64,000 nt of DNA from NCBI GenBank assembly GCA_028822445.1, contig JAPKDQ010000005.1, positions 122,135 to 186,134 on the forward strand, given 5' to 3'. The notes beneath the pieces are model-generated. The model saw only the letters and a list, made by a program, of their open reading frames with translations. It had not been told where the DNA came from and did not search any database. This document shows, piece by piece, positions 13,558 through 64,000 of this stretch (positions are counted from its first letter, which is position 1; every line of letters begins with the position of its first letter). The stretch is from Rhodospirillaceae bacterium. GTDB taxonomy: Bacteria > Pseudomonadota > Alphaproteobacteria > Rhodospirillales > Rhodospirillaceae. The position numbers and the translations under genes are program-made.

Positions 13558-14229
13558 ATGAGTAGATTTAGCGGCAAGGTGGCATTGGTCACCAACGCAG
13601 GCGGCAAAACCGGCAAAGGCATTTGCGCGCAACTGGAAAAAGACGGCGCCACTGTTGTTGTTGCCGACTTCGATGTCACGACCGTCGAAGGCTGGGAACA
13701 AGGGCTCTCTGCCATAGGTTATAGCCATGGCCGCTTGGATGTTTTGGTTACTATTTCTGAAGCTAAATACGACACAGCGAAGCCTATTGCAGAAACATCT
13801 CTAGAAGAATTCCGCGCCGTCAATCGCGATAACGTCGAAGCGGCGTTTCTCGCCAACCGCTATGGCGTGGTGAAGATGCGTGAGTTTGACAATGGCGGAT
13901 CTATCGTCAACGTCGCACCTGCAACAGCTACCGTCGGTGTTTCTGGACAAGCAGCCTTCTGCGCCTCTGCAAACGGCATCCGTATGATGACCCGTGGCGC
14001 CGCTCTCTCCTGCTGCGACGCCAAAGACCGCATTCGCATAAACTGTGTGCAAGCTGGCCGAATTGAAGGCACGCCTGATGGCGACGTCATGGCCAACACC
14101 CACGTACCTCTTGGCCGAGCGGGCACTGTAGAAGACATTGCTGAGGCCGTTTCGTTCCTCGCCTCAGAAGAGGCCTATTACATCACAGGATACATTTTAC
14201 CGGTCGATGGCGGCATGCTCGCCGTCTAA
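13558..14229 (+). CDS. Degenerate SDR-fold protein (probable pseudoenzyme)
   Basis: The 223-residue protein is clearly SDR-like at both ends ('MSRFSGKVALVTN' and 'ITGYILPVDGGMLAV'), but every catalytic motif is altered. The glycine-rich TGxxxGxG reads 'TNAGGKTGKG', with two of three glycines changed. The NNAG motif reads 'LVTISEAK'. The catalytic Ser region reads 'NVAPATATVG', and the YxxxK pair reads 'FCASA', so Tyr is Phe and Lys is Ala. About 25 residues of the central domain are also missing compared with a typical 250-residue SDR. The frame is intact, so it seems maintained rather than a recent pseudogene. It ends in a 4-base convergent overlap with the hydrolase-like gene. Confidence 0.75.
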   Translation: MSRFSGKVALVTNAGGKTGKGICAQLEKDGATVVVADFDVTTVEGWEQGLSAIGYSHGRLDVLVTISEAKYDTAKPIAETSLEEFRAVNRDNVEAAFLANRYGVVKMREFDNGGSIVNVAPATATVGVSGQAAFCASANGIRMMTRGAALSCCDAKDRIRINCVQAGRIEGTPDGDVMANTHVPLGRAGTVEDIAEAVSFLASEEAYYITGYILPVDGGMLAV

Positions 14230-15419
14230 GGCGCTTCACTTTCCTCAAGAAGCCCTTCAATCAGCCGGTTGGGCAAGTACGACGCATCCCAATCCGCATG
14301 GCGTTTACCCAAACGCAGAATCACCATGTTCTCGGATGGAATCACATACATCGTACGGTAGCCGCCACCTTCAAAGAAATAGATATCATCTCGAACAAAC
14401 GGTTCCCGGTGAGGGACACCAGCGGGGCGGGTTTCAGAGTACGGACGGTTTTCGACAAATTCGCGCCCTAACCAGATGTGCATGCCATAGTTAGGATTGC
14501 GCGGAGATGGCATGGTCATGGTGTTCACCCAGCCTTCAGGCAACACACGCTCGCCCTGCCACACACCATCGTTGAGCATCAGGGCACCAAGGCGAAGCCA
14601 GTTGTGGGGCGTGGTGCGAAAGCAGCAATCGATATGGATCATGCCGTCGGCGCGATCCATAAAAAAGCTGCCCCGGTCTGCCCCTATCGGTTGCCATATT
14701 TTTTCGACGAAATACTCCTGAATCGGCTTGCCGACCGCTCTCTGCACGACTATGGCGATCAATTGAGACGTGACATTACCAATATCAAATACTGTGCCAG
14801 GCTCATGTGCCATTTCATGGTCCAGGGCCACCATAACAACGTCTCCGGTCCAAGCCGAACGGGTGAACCGATTCCAGGCCCCAGGGCCGAGCGGTGGATT
14901 CTCAAGACCGCTGGCCTGATACAGCAGATCGCGCAGGGTGATGTCGCCTTGAGGCGCGTCCTGCCATTCTTCAAGGTACTCGCCAATGCGGTCATCGATA
15001 GCGATGGCACCATCGTCAATGGCGGCCCCAGCCAGCAGGGCGTTGAGAGTCTTGGTCATGGCCCGGCCGGTCATCAGTTCTTCGGCACCACCCTCTTGCC
15101 AATAGCGTTCGATCTGTATTTTCCCTTTGTGGACGACGATGAAAGCAGTCCCGCCGGTTTGCCCAGCCCAGTCCGCCGCAGCCTTAAGCGTAACCGGGTC
15201 GATGGTTTTCTCACCGTGCTCTGCGGTCACGAAAAACTTGCCGCTGGGTTCATCCATAGCAAATTGAGGAAGATAAAAGTCCGGACCGGGCTCCATGGCG
15301 TCGTCCGGCTGGTTGAGATACCGCTGCCAGAACCCCGGGTCGGACCAATACTCAAGGCCAGCCGCTATAACAAAACAAACCGCTAGGCCACCGATCCCAT
15401 ATCCAAACGCTCGCAACAT
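14226..15419 (-). CDS. Serine-hydrolase (class C beta-lactamase-like) homologue lacking the catalytic Ser
   Basis: The 397-residue protein has one N-terminal membrane anchor or signal (about residues 5-22) and then the beta-lactamase class C / 6-aminohexanoate-dimer hydrolase fold: 'GTAFIVVHKGKIQIERYW', 'LLAGAAIDDGAIAIDDRIGEYL', 'LRDLLYQASGLENPP' and 'GGGYRTMYVIPSENMVILRLG'. The SxxK nucleophile motif reads 'AMTK' (about residues 120-123), so Ser is Ala with Lys kept. The YxN motif reads 'IGN' (about 213-215), so Tyr is Ile. These losses should abolish normal hydrolysis. The gene lies 5 bases after a DUF1838 gene and is the last of the minus-strand array. Confidence 0.82.
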   Translation of the reverse strand: MLRAFGYGIGGLAVCFVIAAGLEYWSDPGFWQRYLNQPDDAMEPGPDFYLPQFAMDEPSGKFFVTAEHGEKTIDPVTLKAAADWAGQTGGTAFIVVHKGKIQIERYWQEGGAEELMTGRAMTKTLNALLAGAAIDDGAIAIDDRIGEYLEEWQDAPQGDITLRDLLYQASGLENPPLGPGAWNRFTRSAWTGDVVMVALDHEMAHEPGTVFDIGNVTSQLIAIVVQRAVGKPIQEYFVEKIWQPIGADRGSFFMDRADGMIHIDCCFRTTPHNWLRLGALMLNDGVWQGERVLPEGWVNTMTMPSPRNPNYGMHIWLGREFVENRPYSETRPAGVPHREPFVRDDIYFFEGGGYRTMYVIPSENMVILRLGKRHADWDASYLPNRLIEGLLEESEAP

Positions 15420-15424
15420 GTCAG

Positions 15425-16339
15425 CTATCCTTTGAACTTACTTTTGTCGACCACGAGAAGTTCAGGGTTGTCCTGCTCGATCTTCTCAAAGTAACTGGCC
15501 GGCAGCTGATGCACGCCATCAAGTTTCTTGCCACTCCAAGTCGCGAACATGTGGCCTGGATTATCTTCCATCTTGAGCCATGGCGGGTAAGGAAAAACGT
15601 ATCCACCGCTGGTTCCCATAGGCAATCGGGTAATGGATTCGTCTTCGAACATGGCGCGCGGTGTCCAATTATGGGATGTCTCGATAAACGGAGTGAACCA
15701 GTTATCAGGCGGTACCCTAATCTCTTCCTGCTTGATCATGTCATCTTCAACCCGGAAAAGAGAATAAGTTTCCGTGAACTCCGCACCGGCTCGGTCGAGG
15801 GGGCGCTTGCCGCCGGGGCCATAAATCATACCCGGGTCTTCGGTCAAAATGGTCGGCGTCACACCATGTGTTTTTCCGGTGATGGGATTAACCAGTTCGT
15901 CGATAAAGTCGCCCGTATAAACGTCACGGGGATAGGACGTGTTATGGCCATGAAGCTCAAACAAATTCTCACCAATTCTACGGTGATGAGAGAACTCGAT
16001 TCCTTCATAGCGGACAACCGGTTTAACGGTTTTGCCTTCTGCCACAATAAACATAGTGAAGAAGTACCAGAGCAGCACATCAGCTTCGTCTTCCCAGGCA
16101 CGGCCTAGGCGAAACTCCGCCTTCATTTTGGCAAGGGGGTCATCGAAGGAGAATTGCTCCGAGACGAGGCGACCATCGGCCGGCGGCATATACGTCGCTG
16201 CAACGTGGTTATCCGCTCTTGCTGTGCCAACACCCAAGGCCCCAGCGGCAGCGCCAATAGCGGGGATAGTCAAAGCTTTGCGGCGCGATACGCTTGGTTC
16301 AACACCGCCAGCGAATGCGCGTTTCATGATATCGAGCAT
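15425..16339 (-). CDS. DUF1838 family protein with Tat signal
   Basis: This 304-residue protein starts with a twin-arginine signal ('SVSRRKALTIPAIGAAAGALG', cleavage probably near ARA-DN). The DUF1838 domain follows: 'DPLAKMKAEFRLGRAWEDE', 'MRYEGIEFSHHR'-like 'VRYEGIEFSHHRR', 'NPITGKTHGVTPTILTEDPG', and a C-terminal 'YPPWLKMEDNPGHMFATWSGKK'. It is probably periplasmic, and no reaction is known for the family. AAGGGG stands upstream of ATG 16339. It pairs tightly with the downstream pseudo-hydrolase (5-base gap) and lies 159 bases downstream of the LytTR gene. Confidence 0.85.
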   Translation of the reverse strand: MLDIMKRAFAGGVEPSVSRRKALTIPAIGAAAGALGVGTARADNHVAATYMPPADGRLVSEQFSFDDPLAKMKAEFRLGRAWEDEADVLLWYFFTMFIVAEGKTVKPVVRYEGIEFSHHRRIGENLFELHGHNTSYPRDVYTGDFIDELVNPITGKTHGVTPTILTEDPGMIYGPGGKRPLDRAGAEFTETYSLFRVEDDMIKQEEIRVPPDNWFTPFIETSHNWTPRAMFEDESITRLPMGTSGGYVFPYPPWLKMEDNPGHMFATWSGKKLDGVHQLPASYFEKIEQDNPELLVVDKSKFKG

Positions 16340-16498: not shown

Positions 16499-17299
16499 CT
16501 ATAAAAGGCCTGCGTGCTCAACAACGCCACGGTAAGACTGACTTACCGGGACTTCCAAGTCATTAGATAGTCTCAGCTTTAGAGTACGCCCGGTTTTCTC
16601 TAATGCTTTGATTGCCGATGTCGCAACCCAGTATGAACGGTGAACCCGGATACCAGGCCAGTTCTTAAGGTCTGAAACTGCATCCCGCATACGATACATA
16701 ACCAGGTCGTCCCCTAGCGCGGTATAAACCTTGAGATAATGCTCTTGAGCTTCGAGGGCGATCACATCATGCCCGATTGATGGGTTTGCTTTGCGCAAGA
16801 ATCCAGGCACCTCAAGAGCACTAACCGCAACAGCATTTTGAACCAATGACGCACGTCCCCACTCGCCATTGAGAACACGGTTACGCACGGCGAATGCGGC
16901 GACCCATGCGGTCACCCCTCCAAGGGCATTTGGTCCAAATGCGAATGATAAAAATGGGTCGGCTAAAACGTAACCATTGAGGTGAAGCAATGAGGAAAGG
17001 GTACCCCCCCAGCCATCTGTCAGACCAAGAAGCAATCCCATATAGAAATAGCTTCCGGCCATACCAACCCAGCCACCACACGCGGCCAACAGAATCGTGG
17101 CTGTCCCGTCGGTCTTTAAAACCTTAACGAGTGCAAAGGTGCCCGCAGCGCTGACCAACCAGAAAAACTGGCCGCACGCATACCACAAAGGTACGAGCGT
17201 TCCGGCCCCAAGGTCTGGCGCATACAAAGAGCCACGAACGCCGTTGAGGATAGACAACGCGACCGGCAAACCCACATAAAAGATGATATTTGCCGACAC
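16499..17299 (-). CDS. Membrane-anchored LytTR-domain transcriptional regulator
   Basis: The 266-residue product has about four to six hydrophobic segments in residues 1-140, then a LytTR DNA-binding domain: 'VIALEAQEHYLKVYTALGDDLVMYRMRDAVSDL' and 'RVHRSYWVATSAIKAL', ending 'PVSQSYRGVVEHAG'. LytTR proteins bind direct-repeat promoter sites. Here a membrane sensor replaces the usual receiver domain. It starts at GTG 17299, 17 bases after the MDR reductase stop, so it is the third gene of the DUF1838-MDR-LytTR operon. A paralogue with the same architecture lies at 47505-48386. Confidence 0.85.
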   Translation of the reverse strand: MSANIIFYVGLPVALSILNGVRGSLYAPDLGAGTLVPLWYACGQFFWLVSAAGTFALVKVLKTDGTATILLAACGGWVGMAGSYFYMGLLLGLTDGWGGTLSSLLHLNGYVLADPFLSFAFGPNALGGVTAWVAAFAVRNRVLNGEWGRASLVQNAVAVSALEVPGFLRKANPSIGHDVIALEAQEHYLKVYTALGDDLVMYRMRDAVSDLKNWPGIRVHRSYWVATSAIKALEKTGRTLKLRLSNDLEVPVSQSYRGVVEHAGLL

Positions 17300-17316: not shown

Positions 17317-18459
17317 TTACGTATGCTGAATAATCACCTTACCGATATCGTCGTGTTCTCTTTGATATTCGAACGCCTTAGCCGCATCTTCAAAACTAAA
17401 CCGTTTGGCGATTGGTGGTGTGAGCCCGCTCACGCCGTAAGCTTGGACCATATCATTAAGCATCTCAACGCTGGCGTTGCTAATCGCCTTCATCGTGATG
17501 TTTTTCATATAAAAGCCTGGCATCTTCGGAAGTTGCTCGGGCAACCGGTCCGTGCCAATCAACACCACATAGGCATTGACCGCTGTACCCGTTAAGGACT
17601 GATCAAGCGTCCGTCGTCCGACATTTTCCAACACAATATCGGCGCCATGGCCGTCGGTCGCATCAATGACCGCCTGACCCCAGTCAGGCGTCGTGCGGTA
17701 GTTGATACCGATGTCGGCGCCGTGCTTCTTCATGGCTTCGAGTTTCGCATCACTCGATGATGTCACCACAACCTTTGCGCCACTCATTTTTGCGAGTTGA
17801 ACGCCGAACGAAGACACACCGCCTGTCCCAAGTGACAGTACGATATCTCCCGGTTTTACACGGGCGACTTCGTACAATGCATGCCAAGCTGTAACACCGG
17901 ATGACACAAAGGTCGCCGCTGTCTCTTCAGAAACGCCTTCTGGAAGCTTGACCAACGCATGCGCCGGCAGCAAAGCCATCTCGGCTAGCCAGCCATCGAT
18001 ATTGTTCCCGATATCGCCAATATAGGACTGCTCAGGATCCCATGGACCTTTGATCCAAGACGAGAAGTGAGTGGCAGTCACACGATCACCAACCTGAACC
18101 TGCGTCACGCCGTCACCAACAGCCGCAACAACTCCTGCCCCTTCACTGATGGGGATGCGTGTATCTGGGCGTCGGCCCCGTGGGATAGGGAAGCGATTAG
18201 AAATCAGACCATGATCTCGGGCATTAATAGATGTCGAGACCACCTTAATGAGAGCCTGCCCCGGACCGGGCGCCGGCACCGGGCGCTCAACCATGCGTAA
18301 AGTCTCAGGGCCTTTTTGCTCGCCGATTTCATAAACGCGATACGTCTCACCACCGCTCTGTGCAACTTGCTCGGCCGCCTCCGCAAGGGCTGCTTTGCCC
18401 CCGATCAGTGCACCCGTTGCTCCTGCTGCAGCTGTAAGCACGTTCCGTCTACTGACCAC
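17317..18459 (-). CDS. Tat-exported zinc-type alcohol dehydrogenase / quinone reductase (MDR family)
   Basis: The 380-residue protein begins with a twin-arginine signal, 'SRRNVLTAAAGATGALIGG', before a complete MDR domain. The GroES-like part has 'APGPGQALIKVVSTSINARD' and 'GAGVVAAVGDGVTQVQVGD'. The Rossmann part has 'GDIVLSLGTGGVSSFGVQLAKMSGAKVVVTSSSD'. No structural-zinc Cys cluster is seen, which fits the quinone-reductase branch. Export of an NAD(P)H enzyme needs folding with its cofactor before Tat passage, as known for glucose-fructose oxidoreductase. GTG 18459 follows a good AGGAGAAG site, so the Tat signal belongs to the protein. It lies 9 bases after the upstream DUF1838 gene. Confidence 0.87.
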   Translation of the reverse strand: MVSRRNVLTAAAGATGALIGGKAALAEAAEQVAQSGGETYRVYEIGEQKGPETLRMVERPVPAPGPGQALIKVVSTSINARDHGLISNRFPIPRGRRPDTRIPISEGAGVVAAVGDGVTQVQVGDRVTATHFSSWIKGPWDPEQSYIGDIGNNIDGWLAEMALLPAHALVKLPEGVSEETAATFVSSGVTAWHALYEVARVKPGDIVLSLGTGGVSSFGVQLAKMSGAKVVVTSSSDAKLEAMKKHGADIGINYRTTPDWGQAVIDATDGHGADIVLENVGRRTLDQSLTGTAVNAYVVLIGTDRLPEQLPKMPGFYMKNITMKAISNASVEMLNDMVQAYGVSGLTPPIAKRFSFEDAAKAFEYQREHDDIGKVIIQHT

Positions 18460-18468
18460 TAACTTCTC

Positions 18469-19350
18469 CTAAATTTCAAACGGCGCAGGCTTATCAAAAT
18501 CATCCCACCTTGGCGCCAATAATTCCGGGTACTCCCGTTCCATGCGATCAAGCATTTCGCGGGGCAATTCAGCTGGCCCGTTTACTTTTTTGCCGTCCCA
18601 AAAACCAGAAAGATGCCCGTGCTTGTATTCATCTGGCATGTTGAGCCAGGGGTAATATTCAAAGGCATAGTGACCACAAAATTTCACGGGCAATGAAGTG
18701 ATGGTCTCGTTGGCAAACAAATCTTTTTCAATCCAACTACACGAATTTTCAATATGCGTTGCAGGCCAATCAGGCGGGGCGCTACGAACGCTATCGAGTT
18801 TGATGAGGTTGTCTTCGGTGCGGAACTGGCGGTACACCTTTTGGTAGGTTCCGTCCCCACTTAGATTACGAAACCCTGTCGGATTGCCGACAGTGCCAGG
18901 GTCATGAAGCAAGAGAGAAACAGGAACGTTTACCTGCTCTCCAGTGATCGGGTTTTCGATGCGATCAACAAACTTGTTCGTCTTTAGGTCCCGCGCAAAC
19001 GAAACATTGTGGGCATGAATGCGGTAGTTGTTGTCACCTAAATGACGGAAGTAACTGTATTCGATACCCTCGTACCGCATAAGCGGTTCGGGTCTACGTC
19101 CACCGGGAATAACGAAGACCATCCAGTGATACCACGTCAGCGTTGAGCCTTGGTCTTCGACCAAATCACGCCCCATGCGAAACTGAGCCTTAAACTCTTC
19201 CGCCGGATCATCAAAGTAAATGAATTCGGATGTGGTTTGGCTGATAGGCGGACTGAGAGACGTCAGGATTTGAGACTGTGCTGCCTGGCTGCCTAACAAA
19301 GCGCCCGCGCCGCCGGCTGCGGCCGAAATTATGTTTCGTCGCGTCACCAT
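18469..19350 (-). CDS. DUF1838 family protein with Tat signal
   Basis: The 293-residue protein starts with the Tat signal 'VTRRNIISAAAGGAGALLGSQ'. Its DUF1838 domain resembles that at 15425-16339: 'DPAEEFKAQFRMGRDLVEDQGS', 'LMRYEGIEYSYFRHLG', 'NPITGEQVNVPVSLLLHDPG' and 'YYPWLNMPDEYKHGHLSGFWDGKK'. The start was moved from 19392 to ATG 19350, which follows AAAGGGGAAAG and places the twin arginines correctly. It is the first gene of the minus-strand operon with the MDR reductase and LytTR regulator, divergent from the SDR at 19522. Function unknown; probably periplasmic. Confidence 0.85.
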   Translation of the reverse strand: MVTRRNIISAAAGGAGALLGSQAAQSQILTSLSPPISQTTSEFIYFDDPAEEFKAQFRMGRDLVEDQGSTLTWYHWMVFVIPGGRRPEPLMRYEGIEYSYFRHLGDNNYRIHAHNVSFARDLKTNKFVDRIENPITGEQVNVPVSLLLHDPGTVGNPTGFRNLSGDGTYQKVYRQFRTEDNLIKLDSVRSAPPDWPATHIENSCSWIEKDLFANETITSLPVKFCGHYAFEYYPWLNMPDEYKHGHLSGFWDGKKVNGPAELPREMLDRMEREYPELLAPRWDDFDKPAPFEI

Positions 19351-19521
19351 TGTCTTTCCCCTTTTTCCCGTTACATCTATTCTATCTGTCATAGAGCGTG
19401 AACCGGCTGTTTCAAGCTACCTTGGCCGACCAGTGACCAAACGCACACGTCCGACTTGGGCTTAGATTCCTAGGTGTCATGGTATGATTATAGTTTAGAC
19501 CGATATTGGAGAAATAAGGTT

Positions 19522-20398: not shown

Positions 20399-21049
20399 AT
20401 GGCAACCATGCGCGGAACTATGGACTCACTCAGCGACGAAATGATCGAGGCTATGAATGTCACACGTGAGTTTCTAGGGAATCGTAATGTCGAGAAAGAC
20501 AAAATGGATGCCCGTGCACCCAAGATTCTCGACCAGGCCCCAGACTTTACAGCGGAACGACTATCGGGCGATGGATCCCGCACCGGAGAAAAAATAAGCT
20601 TATCAAACATTCTAGACAAACCCGTCGGCCTACTGTTCGGCAGCTACACCTGCCCCATCTTTCGCGATCAATTGCATCGGTATGAAGAAATCCATCAAGC
20701 ACGCAAAGCTCAAATAAATTTCCTGTGCATCTACATTCTCGAAGCTCACCCAGAAGACGGATGGCGGGTCCCCCACAACTGGAATAAAGACATTTGCCTT
20801 CCCACACCGCAGACCCTGGATGAACGCGCTAAAATTGCCCACTTATGCCGCATCAAGGAGGGATTCACCGTTCCCATGGCCCTCGATACTATGGAAAATG
20901 AACTCCTGGCTTTATATGCCGGAACCCCGGAGCGGCTTTACGCCATTAATACTAACGGTATGATCACTCACAAATCATCCGTCGGCCCATTTACGTTGGA
21001 CGATGTAGAAGCCTGGGACGCTGCGCTAGGCAACCTGACCGACGCCTAA
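20399..21049 (+). CDS. Iodothyronine-deiodinase-like thioredoxin-fold protein
   Basis: The 216-residue protein carries the signature of bacterial deiodinase-like proteins: 'LDKPVGLLFGSYTCPIFRDQL', where Cys stands in the place of the selenocysteine of animal deiodinases, then 'INFLCIYILEAHPEDGW' and 'PMALDTMENELLALYAGTPERLYAIN'. The fold is thioredoxin-like. Animal members reductively remove iodide; the bacterial role is not established and could be peroxide or thiol chemistry. No signal peptide is seen. A GAGGAT site precedes ATG 20399. It lies between two SDR genes on the same strand. Confidence 0.82.
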   Translation: MATMRGTMDSLSDEMIEAMNVTREFLGNRNVEKDKMDARAPKILDQAPDFTAERLSGDGSRTGEKISLSNILDKPVGLLFGSYTCPIFRDQLHRYEEIHQARKAQINFLCIYILEAHPEDGWRVPHNWNKDICLPTPQTLDERAKIAHLCRIKEGFTVPMALDTMENELLALYAGTPERLYAINTNGMITHKSSVGPFTLDDVEAWDAALGNLTDA

Positions 21050-61291: not shown

Positions 61292-63769
61292 TCAGAACCT
61301 ATAGGATGCCCGGATACCGCCACGAATTGGATCTGCTTTATTCAAAACGGCAGCCCGGCTTCCTCGATTGGTAAAGAAGCCGAAGAAATCTCCCTGGCCG
61401 AAACCGCTCTTAATTGTCTTGTTGTCAAAGAGGTTATCAACATACCCGGTAATGGACCAAAACTCGGATTGCAGACCCAGCCGCACATCTACGTTTGAAA
61501 AACCGCCGAACCACTGGCCGTTGTATTCGGTGAAATAACGTTTGCTCTGATATTGAAGAGAAGCCTCAGCCAAAAGTTCGAGGCCGTCTGTAATTGGTTG
61601 GGTGTACGTCAACGTGGCTGAGAGCGCATGTTTCGGTGCGCGTTCCAGATTATTTCCTGACAAATCTAGAAGGCATTGTGTGCTGTTTCCACCGCTTCCG
61701 ACCTTAACGATTTCACACTCACCCGAGAAAGCAACGTTTGCGGCAGAGCGGGTAAAAATAGTGAAGTCAGTGTATTTGGCATCTAGGAAAGTATACGCGA
61801 AGGCGAAGTCGAATTGTTCGCTCAGAGCAAAGCGCGAATCAATTTCCGCACCGTATACCCGAGCGGCACCGGCGTTTGCGATTACACTGCGGTAACCTGA
61901 CGCCGCAGTCGGGTCGACAACGAGTGTCGACACCTGCTTGTCAGTGTAATCCATATAGAATAAAGCCGAGTTGAAGATAGCCCTTCCGTCAAGCCAGGTT
62001 GTCTTAGCGCCAATCTCGTAGTTCCAAAGCTGCTCAGCACTAAAAACATTGTCTTCCAATTTATAGAACACACCAACAGTCGAAATGCCACCTGGCTTAA
62101 CACCCTTGCCAATGGAGCCGTAGACCATCACGTCCTCAGACGCCTGATATTCGATGTAACCTTTTGGAGCAAAATACTTTTGCGACAATGGAAGGCCTTT
62201 TGGACCAGGCGCGCCGTTTCTTGTCGCTACAGGCGTAATGCCGAAACCAAACCCGATCTGGCTGGTTGGAAATCCGTAGACAAAGTCTTCCCAATATTGG
62301 CGGGCCTCTACACCTACGGACAGACTTGACGAAACGTCGTATTCCACCAAGCCATATACCGAATAGTGCGACGTTTCGCGGCTTTCGCCCGTCGAAGTGC
62401 CGCCTGGGTTACCCGCGAGAACGTTATTCAAACCGGCTGAAGAAGAAGGATTGATCAAAAGAACGGCAAAGGAACGGTTATCCTGATTAGACTTTTCGTG
62501 CCAGTACAGCCCGCCGACCAACCAACGGAACTTATCATCGCTGTCAATATTTGAAATTCTAATGTCTTCGCTGAATTGCTTGGTCACCCCTTCGGTATTG
62601 AATTCAAACGTAGACGGGAGTGGCTCGCCAATACCACCCGGCAAAGGGAACATGACCTGCACGGGCTTCCGACCCACACCGTCAATGTCCTGGAATACTG
62701 AACTCTTAGCGCGAAGATATCCTGTCGTAGACTCGATAACTGCTCCGCCAAGGTCGTATTCGGCGTGCACTCGGCTAAAGAACGTATCTAGCGATGAGCC
62801 AGGGTAATCTTCTAAGGTGCGCGGATTTAAGCTGACATTAACCGTTTGATTCGGGCGGAGCTCTCCCAATGGTGGAGCCAAAATTGAGCCTGGAAGCCTC
62901 AAATTGCCAGTAGTCTTGCCGGCAACATTGGACGGTAGCGCAACCGGTACAGACGTACCGTTCGAAATGCCAATGGCAACGTAGGGTTGTTGCTCCGAAT
63001 CGTTTTTGCTGTAGGTGACTGACGCATCCACCGTAAAGTTTTCTGTCAGACGAAGAGCAGTCGTAAGACTGGCCTGAGCGCTTTCATAACCACCAATATT
63101 CTTGTCCGAAACAGTATTCTCGTGGTATCCGTCGCTTCGGGAGTATCCTGCGTGAAGCCGAATGCTCATTGCCTCGTCAACAACTGGACCTTCCACAGCA
63201 CCAACAACTTCGTACGTTCCGTGAGATGCAGCAGTTGCATTGAGACTACCGCTCACTTCATCGCCGGGCCGTTTGGTGACGTAGTTGATCGCTCCGCCGA
63301 AAGCTACGCGACCGTACAACGCACTTTGCGGCCCCTTAACGACTTCAATACGGTCTACGTCAATAAGACGTAAATTTAAGAGGTTGCCGCCCCCGGCTGT
63401 GGCGACAGCCTCGGACGAGACATCGACGCCGTCAATAAGTACTCCGATAGGCGGACGTCCTCGCGTTGCGGGCAGGCCACGAATTATCGGTCTTGTGTCT
63501 TGAGCACTGAAATTTTGTTCGAAGACCAGACTAGGGGTTAGTCTCGCAATATCGTCGATCCTGGCGATCCCTGCGCGCTCAATCATCTCTGAAGAAAAAA
63601 CCGTGACGGACAGCGGAACATCCTGCAATGACTCTTCGCGGTTACGCGCAGTGACAATGATTTCTTCGATGGCGATGTTTTGGGCGGCCACATCCTGCAC
63701 ACCCATGAGGGCGGCGGTGGACAGCATGGTGGCACTGGCAAGCCAGTAGCGGTAACTGCGAGGCTTCAT
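61292..63769 (-). CDS. TonB-dependent outer-membrane receptor
   Basis: The 825-residue protein has a signal peptide (ending ALMGVQDVAAQ), a TonB-box-like 'IEEIIVTARNREESLQDVPLSVTVF', a plug domain ('TPSLVFEQNFSAQDTRPIIRGLPATRGRPPIGVLIDGVDV', 'IEVVKGPQSALYGRVAFGGAINYVTKRP') and a long beta-barrel that ends with the outer-membrane Phe of 'GGIRASYRF'. It imports a large or scarce substrate with energy from TonB. The sequence resembles receptors for non-iron organic compounds in sphingomonads and relatives, but the ligand is not determinable. ATG 63769 follows AAAGGGATTTTAGTG. Confidence 0.93.
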   Translation of the reverse strand: MKPRSYRYWLASATMLSTAALMGVQDVAAQNIAIEEIIVTARNREESLQDVPLSVTVFSSEMIERAGIARIDDIARLTPSLVFEQNFSAQDTRPIIRGLPATRGRPPIGVLIDGVDVSSEAVATAGGGNLLNLRLIDVDRIEVVKGPQSALYGRVAFGGAINYVTKRPGDEVSGSLNATAASHGTYEVVGAVEGPVVDEAMSIRLHAGYSRSDGYHENTVSDKNIGGYESAQASLTTALRLTENFTVDASVTYSKNDSEQQPYVAIGISNGTSVPVALPSNVAGKTTGNLRLPGSILAPPLGELRPNQTVNVSLNPRTLEDYPGSSLDTFFSRVHAEYDLGGAVIESTTGYLRAKSSVFQDIDGVGRKPVQVMFPLPGGIGEPLPSTFEFNTEGVTKQFSEDIRISNIDSDDKFRWLVGGLYWHEKSNQDNRSFAVLLINPSSSAGLNNVLAGNPGGTSTGESRETSHYSVYGLVEYDVSSSLSVGVEARQYWEDFVYGFPTSQIGFGFGITPVATRNGAPGPKGLPLSQKYFAPKGYIEYQASEDVMVYGSIGKGVKPGGISTVGVFYKLEDNVFSAEQLWNYEIGAKTTWLDGRAIFNSALFYMDYTDKQVSTLVVDPTAASGYRSVIANAGAARVYGAEIDSRFALSEQFDFAFAYTFLDAKYTDFTIFTRSAANVAFSGECEIVKVGSGGNSTQCLLDLSGNNLERAPKHALSATLTYTQPITDGLELLAEASLQYQSKRYFTEYNGQWFGGFSNVDVRLGLQSEFWSITGYVDNLFDNKTIKSGFGQGDFFGFFTNRGSRAAVLNKADPIRGGIRASYRF

Positions 63770-64000
63770 CACTAAAATCCCTTTAACTTAAGGTCTATCT
63801 AGCCTCTCAGTTTCTCAGTTTTTGAAGGTGAAAATACAGAAGACTAAAATTTATTCTGCTGTATTTTCAGGTAGTAGGCAATAAATAACGGTGTCTCATC
63901 GCAATTAATTCGTCTTTGATCGGTGAGCAGTTATCGTTAATAAGGTTACGCGCATTCGGTTTTGAGCAATACCGAATTGCTAGGTGTTGCATGGCGATGT
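63770..64000. promoter_or_regulatory. Upstream region of the TonB receptor gene
   Basis: These 231 bases must carry the receptor promoter on the minus strand. The segment is AT-rich and includes a short direct repeat, CTCAGTTT CTCAGTTT, near 63811-63826. No ORF, RNA or clear Fur-like box was recognised before the window ends. Confidence 0.4.

Follow-up and report, generated by a model that had tools for sequence, protein, structure and literature searches.

Proteins that retain the fold of serine beta-lactamases after losing its catalytic residues are already known. MipB (PA1797) of Pseudomonas aeruginosa has this fold without SxxK and with degenerate YxN and KTG motifs, and has been proposed to act as a co-sensor together with ParS (PMC10936184). 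A second example, 5IHV, is an inactive beta-lactamase of Burkholderia ambifaria (GKN subgroup) in which the nucleophile Ser has been replaced by Gly with the fold unchanged (PMC12073871). In the open-access literature we did not find described a clade in which the nucleophile was lost repeatedly, the pocket was remodelled and a partnership exists with proteins of the DUF1838 family. Here we examine a member of such a clade, a gene of a marine alphaproteobacterium that lies in a stretch of 64,000 nucleotides (hereafter the window; Table 1). On balance, we lean towards reading its product as a periplasmic, inner-membrane-anchored pseudoenzyme which would bind a ligand within a DUF1838-linked uptake or processing module.

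The gene has an ATG start and an unbroken frame, and its product belongs to the Pfam family PF00144 (Beta-lactamase; E = 1.6e-22, 80.6 bits versus a cut-off of 27). The best NCBIfam match, to the 3-succinylated cholic acid synthase NF045925 (a bile-acid succinyltransferase), was rejected because it scores 58.2 bits against a cut-off of 800, despite E = 5.2e-16. In the AlphaFold2 model of the protein (pLDDT 93.9, pTM 0.91), residue 120 lies at the beginning of helix 119-135 and residue 213 immediately before helix 215-229, where SxxK and YxN normally sit. A preliminary description of this DNA had reported that these motifs read AMTK and IGN within an intact frame of 397 residues, all of which the sequence bears out; it had given no strand for the gene, which is encoded on the minus strand. 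The alternative SxxK that could have overturned that reading is absent, given that the 397 residues contain no S..K, T..K or C..K. Among the residues that mark an active S12/class C serine hydrolase, the window protein therefore lacks the Ser of SxxK and the Tyr of YxN and keeps the Lys. The predicted topology, with the N-terminal helix as a signal anchor, would leave the bulk of the protein in the periplasm.

Table 1. Features of the pseudo-beta-lactamase locus and its neighbours, in window coordinates.
Feature	Position	Strand	Basis or remark
Pseudo-beta-lactamase, PF00144, S12/class C fold, 397 aa, predicted to be membrane-anchored	14226..15419	-	ORF, profile match and predicted model
Predicted signal anchor, N-terminal hydrophobic helix, residues 1-26	15342..15419	-	Model helix 2-26; hydropathy maximum 1.95 at residue 4
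Arg119	15063..15065	-	Invariant in the Tyr-less I/V clade (20/20), 16% elsewhere
Ala120, codon GCC	15060..15062	-	Nucleophile position of SxxK (reads AMTK)
Lys123	15051..15053	-	General-base position of SxxK, kept
Ile213, codon ATT	14781..14783	-	Tyr position of YxN (reads IGN)
Motif 3 region, E350-G-G-G-Y-R355	14355..14372	-	E350, G352 and R355 clade-specific
DUF1838a	15425..16339	-	Tat-type N-terminus; followed after 5 nt by the pseudoenzyme; lost in G006
Membrane protein with LytTR DNA-binding domain	16499..17299	-	At the orthologous locus in 2/8 genomes
MDR/quinone-oxidoreductase-like dehydrogenase	17317..18459	-	Tat-type N-terminus; same gene run in 8/8 genomes
DUF1838b	18469..19392	-	Tat-type N-terminus; not beside the orthologue in G004 and G009
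SDR homologue, 223 aa	13558..14229	+	YxxxK reads FxxxN
Iodothyronine deiodinase-like thioredoxin-fold protein	20399..21049	+	PF00837, E = 1.7e-21; in the conserved neighbourhood of most genomes

Both substitutions are old and have been maintained. We compared eight orthologues, from the window genome, six further genomes of its genus and one genome of another genus (G009), which are 75-79% identical (75% for G009). Position 120 is Ala in seven of the eight, namely in all those of the window genus, and Ser in G009, while position 213 is Ile in every one, G009 included; an orthologue that keeps both Ser and Tyr, which would have spoken against the preliminary description, was thus not among them. 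The Ala is encoded by GCC, GCG or GCT and the Ile by ATT, ATC or ATA, at a median dS of 2.3 that is near saturation overall and saturated for part of the pairs. Such drift of synonymous codons around unchanged residues indicates that both substitutions are held by selection, and pN/pS in the window group (0.20) resembles that of the groups of paralogues whose Ser, Lys and Tyr are all present (0.18-0.23). By the orthologue alignment and pN/pS, the protein looks like a pseudoenzyme: residues needed for catalysis are gone, and purifying selection has kept them so. Taken together at the level of sequence, fixation, synonymous drift and a constraint like that of intact paralogues give good support to the selected non-catalytic role proposed earlier.

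The Ala codon is, as had been pointed out, a single base away from the Ser codon TCC, which is the very codon carried by G009. This proximity is what speaks for a sequencing or assembly error, or for a pseudogene in decay, but the same Ala recurs in seven separate assemblies with differing synonymous codons, intact frames and the low pN/pS given above, so that this explanation is scarcely conceivable and we regard it as ruled out. The codon in G009 is informative in another respect: since this orthologue has Ser together with Ile, the loss of Ser and the loss of Tyr were separate steps. Most likely Tyr was lost before Ser, which refines the earlier idea of two lost residues.

The wider family leads to a similar picture. 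Genomes of the genus carry 9 to 12 paralogues each, and in a maximum-likelihood tree built with the catalytic columns masked, the window gene falls inside a 20-row clade (support 99/97) whose members all have Ile or Val in place of Tyr. Within it there are three groups without Ser: A-K-I-N, to which the window gene belongs, G-K-V/I, and A-R-V-Q, in which Ser, Lys, Tyr and Asn have all been lost. Two further rows (L008 and L077) retain Ser and Lys with Tyr changed to Ile, and judging by these residues, activity might persist in parts of the clade. Constraining the 18 Ser-less rows to form one clade was rejected (p-AU 0.0018), thereby ruling out a single Ser-less clade and implying that Ser was either lost more than once or regained. 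Repeated loss within the 20-row clade (to Ala, to Gly, and to Ala together with Arg), with Tyr already gone, is probably the simpler reading. Ser, Ala and Gly are the only residues at position 120 in this clade, as would be expected if the site required a small side chain and not a nucleophile. The next group outside the clade has His for Tyr and keeps Ser. Separate relatives lacking Ser and Lys were also seen in another alphaproteobacterial family (L087:1477-2802 and L091:1468-2733), with Ala at 120, Gly or Ala at 123 and no DUF1838 gene nearby at either locus.

Relative to the rest of the protein, the variability of the active-site shell, as defined from the motif positions, is 0.38-0.48 in Ser-less groups versus 0.38-0.52 in most intact groups. 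All 20 rows of the clade agree in seven residues (G118, R119, N183, R268, E350, G352 and R355) that are uncommon in the other 76. Given that both Ser-keeping rows share this new set, the change in the shell either preceded the loss of Ser or was independent of it. From their place in the sequence, the clade-specific residues may well face the pocket. This suggests that the pocket was rebuilt and preserved, not abandoned, and that a former enzyme has become a binding protein that works together with DUF1838 proteins; a shell that is better kept than the remainder of the protein points to a ligand rather than to mere scaffolding.

A pocket this well kept also makes continued catalysis by a changed chemistry the main rival, ahead of a sensor or a pure scaffold. 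In such a case K123, R119, E350 and R355, perhaps with a metal or water, would carry out a non-covalent reaction without Ser or Tyr. Conservation of the shell equals that in intact paralogues, charged residues are among the new invariant ones, K123 persists in the AKIN and GKV groups, and the SKHN and SKFH groups, which keep Ser and have Tyr replaced, demonstrate that the family tolerates altered catalytic residues. Nevertheless, the ARVQ group has none of the classical catalytic residues and yet shares the same new set and the DUF1838 linkage, and in two GKV loci an alpha/beta hydrolase directly downstream (by Pfam) could perform the hydrolysis instead. We therefore consider a changed chemistry unlikely.

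The binding-protein reading draws further on the gene neighbourhood. On the minus strand the genes of the window follow the order DUF1838b, dehydrogenase, membrane LytTR protein, DUF1838a and pseudoenzyme. DUF1838a adjoins the pseudoenzyme in seven of the eight genomes, and at least one DUF1838 gene is found at each of the eight orthologous loci. Neither copy is an obligate partner by itself, as DUF1838a is lost in G006, where the pseudoenzyme is retained, and DUF1838b is missing beside the orthologue in two other genomes (G004 and G009). The preliminary description had suggested binding or scaffolding for a DUF1838 partner; the linkage proved real across the clade, whereas "scaffold" went too far. 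As a pure scaffold or chaperone for DUF1838, the protein would have no ligand and an irrelevant active site. The persistent neighbourhood and the 5-nt spacing to DUF1838a (6/8 genomes) would suit such a role, but it sits badly with a shell that is conserved above the rest of the protein and remodelled in a clade-specific manner, as well as with the absence of DUF1838a from G006, and we rank it lowest among the functional alternatives. Hardly more credible is a sensor in which ligand binding in the dead pocket would be relayed to the membrane LytTR regulator, in the way proposed for MipB with ParS. A membrane LytTR regulator does lie in the operon in the window and in G001, LytTR proteins are often found near sister Ser-less genes (L103, L104, L105, L109), and MipB offers a precedent as a beta-lactamase fold without SxxK (PMC10936184); at six of the eight orthologous loci, however, LytTR was not found, so it is no constant partner.

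Across the family, a DUF1838 gene lies within 1.5 kb of 27 of the 30 Tyr-less (H/I/V) genes and of 8 of the 11 SKYD and SKYS rows, and of none of the 27 Ser-Lys-Tyr-Asn rows. The association with the active site (Fisher p 1e-10) is overstated by this p-value, as the rows come from related genomes, but the split does fall between clades. In loci with upstream sequence available, TonB-dependent receptors lie near sister Ser-less genes in 4/5 ARVQ and 4/4 GKV cases, and also at L114. The order at the sister loci, (LytTR) - TonB-dependent receptor - DUF1838 - pseudo-beta-lactamase - (alpha/beta hydrolase) - DUF1838, corresponds to that of a module for uptake and processing. No TonB-dependent receptor stands next to the pseudoenzyme in the window, where one is encoded at 61292-63772. 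DUF1838 is, to our knowledge, a domain without a known function: we found it mentioned only in passing in the open-access literature, and a DUF1838 model (pLDDT 79) gave only weak Foldseek matches (best E 6e-4, TM <=0.29), which say nothing useful about its fold.

Several observations on these neighbourhoods deserve mention in their own right. At one locus (L103:4714-8612) four consecutive DUF1838 genes are flanked by a TonB-dependent receptor on one side and an A-R-V-Q pseudoenzyme on the other. In the SKHN group (L024-L027, L030, L042, L049, L055), which has intact Ser and Lys and His for the catalytic Tyr, DUF1838 occurs within 1.5 kb in 8/10 cases; an SDR and a solute-binding protein of family 5 are frequent neighbours as well. 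The dehydrogenase in the window, with the N-terminus VSRRNVLTAAAGATGALIGG, is conserved throughout the aligned genomes; export of an enzyme that depends on nicotinamide cofactors would be out of the ordinary. Lastly, the SDR homologue looks catalytically dead: Asn replaces Lys in 15/15 orthologues aligned, NNAG is gone and the protein is short by about 25 residues. In each of the eight genomes this gene and the pseudo-beta-lactamase gene converge, and their stop ends overlap by 4 nt. Seven other genomes have the SDR gene in the order QueF-SDR-SDR with no pseudoenzyme beside it, and this synteny with QueF and other SDR genes led us to reject it as a functional partner.

A likely course of events would start from an ancestor with the serine beta-lactamase / 6-aminohexanoate-dimer hydrolase fold, in which the catalytic Tyr changed to Ile or Val. 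The ancestral shell would also have gained the new invariant set (G118, R119, N183, R268, E350 and R355), after which the nucleophile position would need only a small side chain and Ser could give way to Ala or Gly in separate lineages. The old substrate pocket would most likely now bind a putative ligand without cleaving it, and hold this ligand for, or hand it to, the Tat-exported DUF1838 proteins of the same operon, with which the pseudoenzyme would belong to a module for uptake or for processing in the periplasm. For the Tyr-less I/V clade as a whole we put forward a more tentative view, to which we give somewhat less than an even chance: the rebuilt pocket (R119, N183, R268, E350, R355) would serve a new function, be it the transfer of a ligand or a chemistry that needs no Ser, together with DUF1838 in TonB-receptor-linked uptake operons, and the nucleophile, free to drift once the pocket had changed, would have been lost several times. 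Such a family is valuable because it offers a small natural series in one gene family, and partly in one genome, that runs from Ser and Tyr intact through Ser+His, Ser+Ile, Ala+Ile and Gly+Val to Ala+Arg+Val, and thus suggests an order of steps from hydrolase to non-hydrolase. As DUF1838 is tied both to this series and to TonB-dependent receptors, its function becomes testable.

How, then, does the window protein compare with known systems? Like MipB, it is a predicted envelope protein with a dead beta-lactamase fold, and MipB works with a beta-barrel partner from the same operon (PMC10936184). The likeness is one of fold: MipB, a lipoprotein, is about 600 aa long, carries two additional beta-barrel domains at its C-terminus and has MipA as its partner, whereas the window protein has 397 aa, a predicted signal anchor and DUF1838 as candidate partner, with no domain beyond the beta-lactamase fold in its model and no lipobox (the residue before Cys15, the sole candidate, is V, I, F or L). 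The neighbours identified at the pseudoenzyme loci are DUF1838, ADH, LytTR, SDR and QueF. With 5IHV it shares the superfamily and a small residue in place of the nucleophile Ser, although 5IHV is of class A type, has also lost the base (Ala50) and has no DUF1838 context described (PMC12073871). The best solved relatives by sequence are PIB-1, a 6-aminohexanoate-dimer-hydrolase-like protein, Lsa45 and NylB, and the AlphaFold2 model matches the same proteins by fold. PIB-1 (8rlj), Lsa45 (8dc1; Foldseek E 5e-21) and EstG (7uda) are among the nearest solved structures, at about 13-22% identity, and PIB-1 and Lsa45 keep Ser and Lys in alignments. The 6-aminohexanoate-dimer hydrolase NylB (1wyb), which the preliminary description had named for comparison, indeed has the same fold (E 7e-16, TM 0.60, 18% identity), and the wild-type enzyme is active and keeps Ser112, Lys115 and Tyr215, whereas the window protein has neither Ser nor Tyr. 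According to structure entries, NylB S112A, the same change in the same place as Ala120, has been crystallised with substrate, and these complexes imply that Ala at the nucleophile position is compatible with binding.
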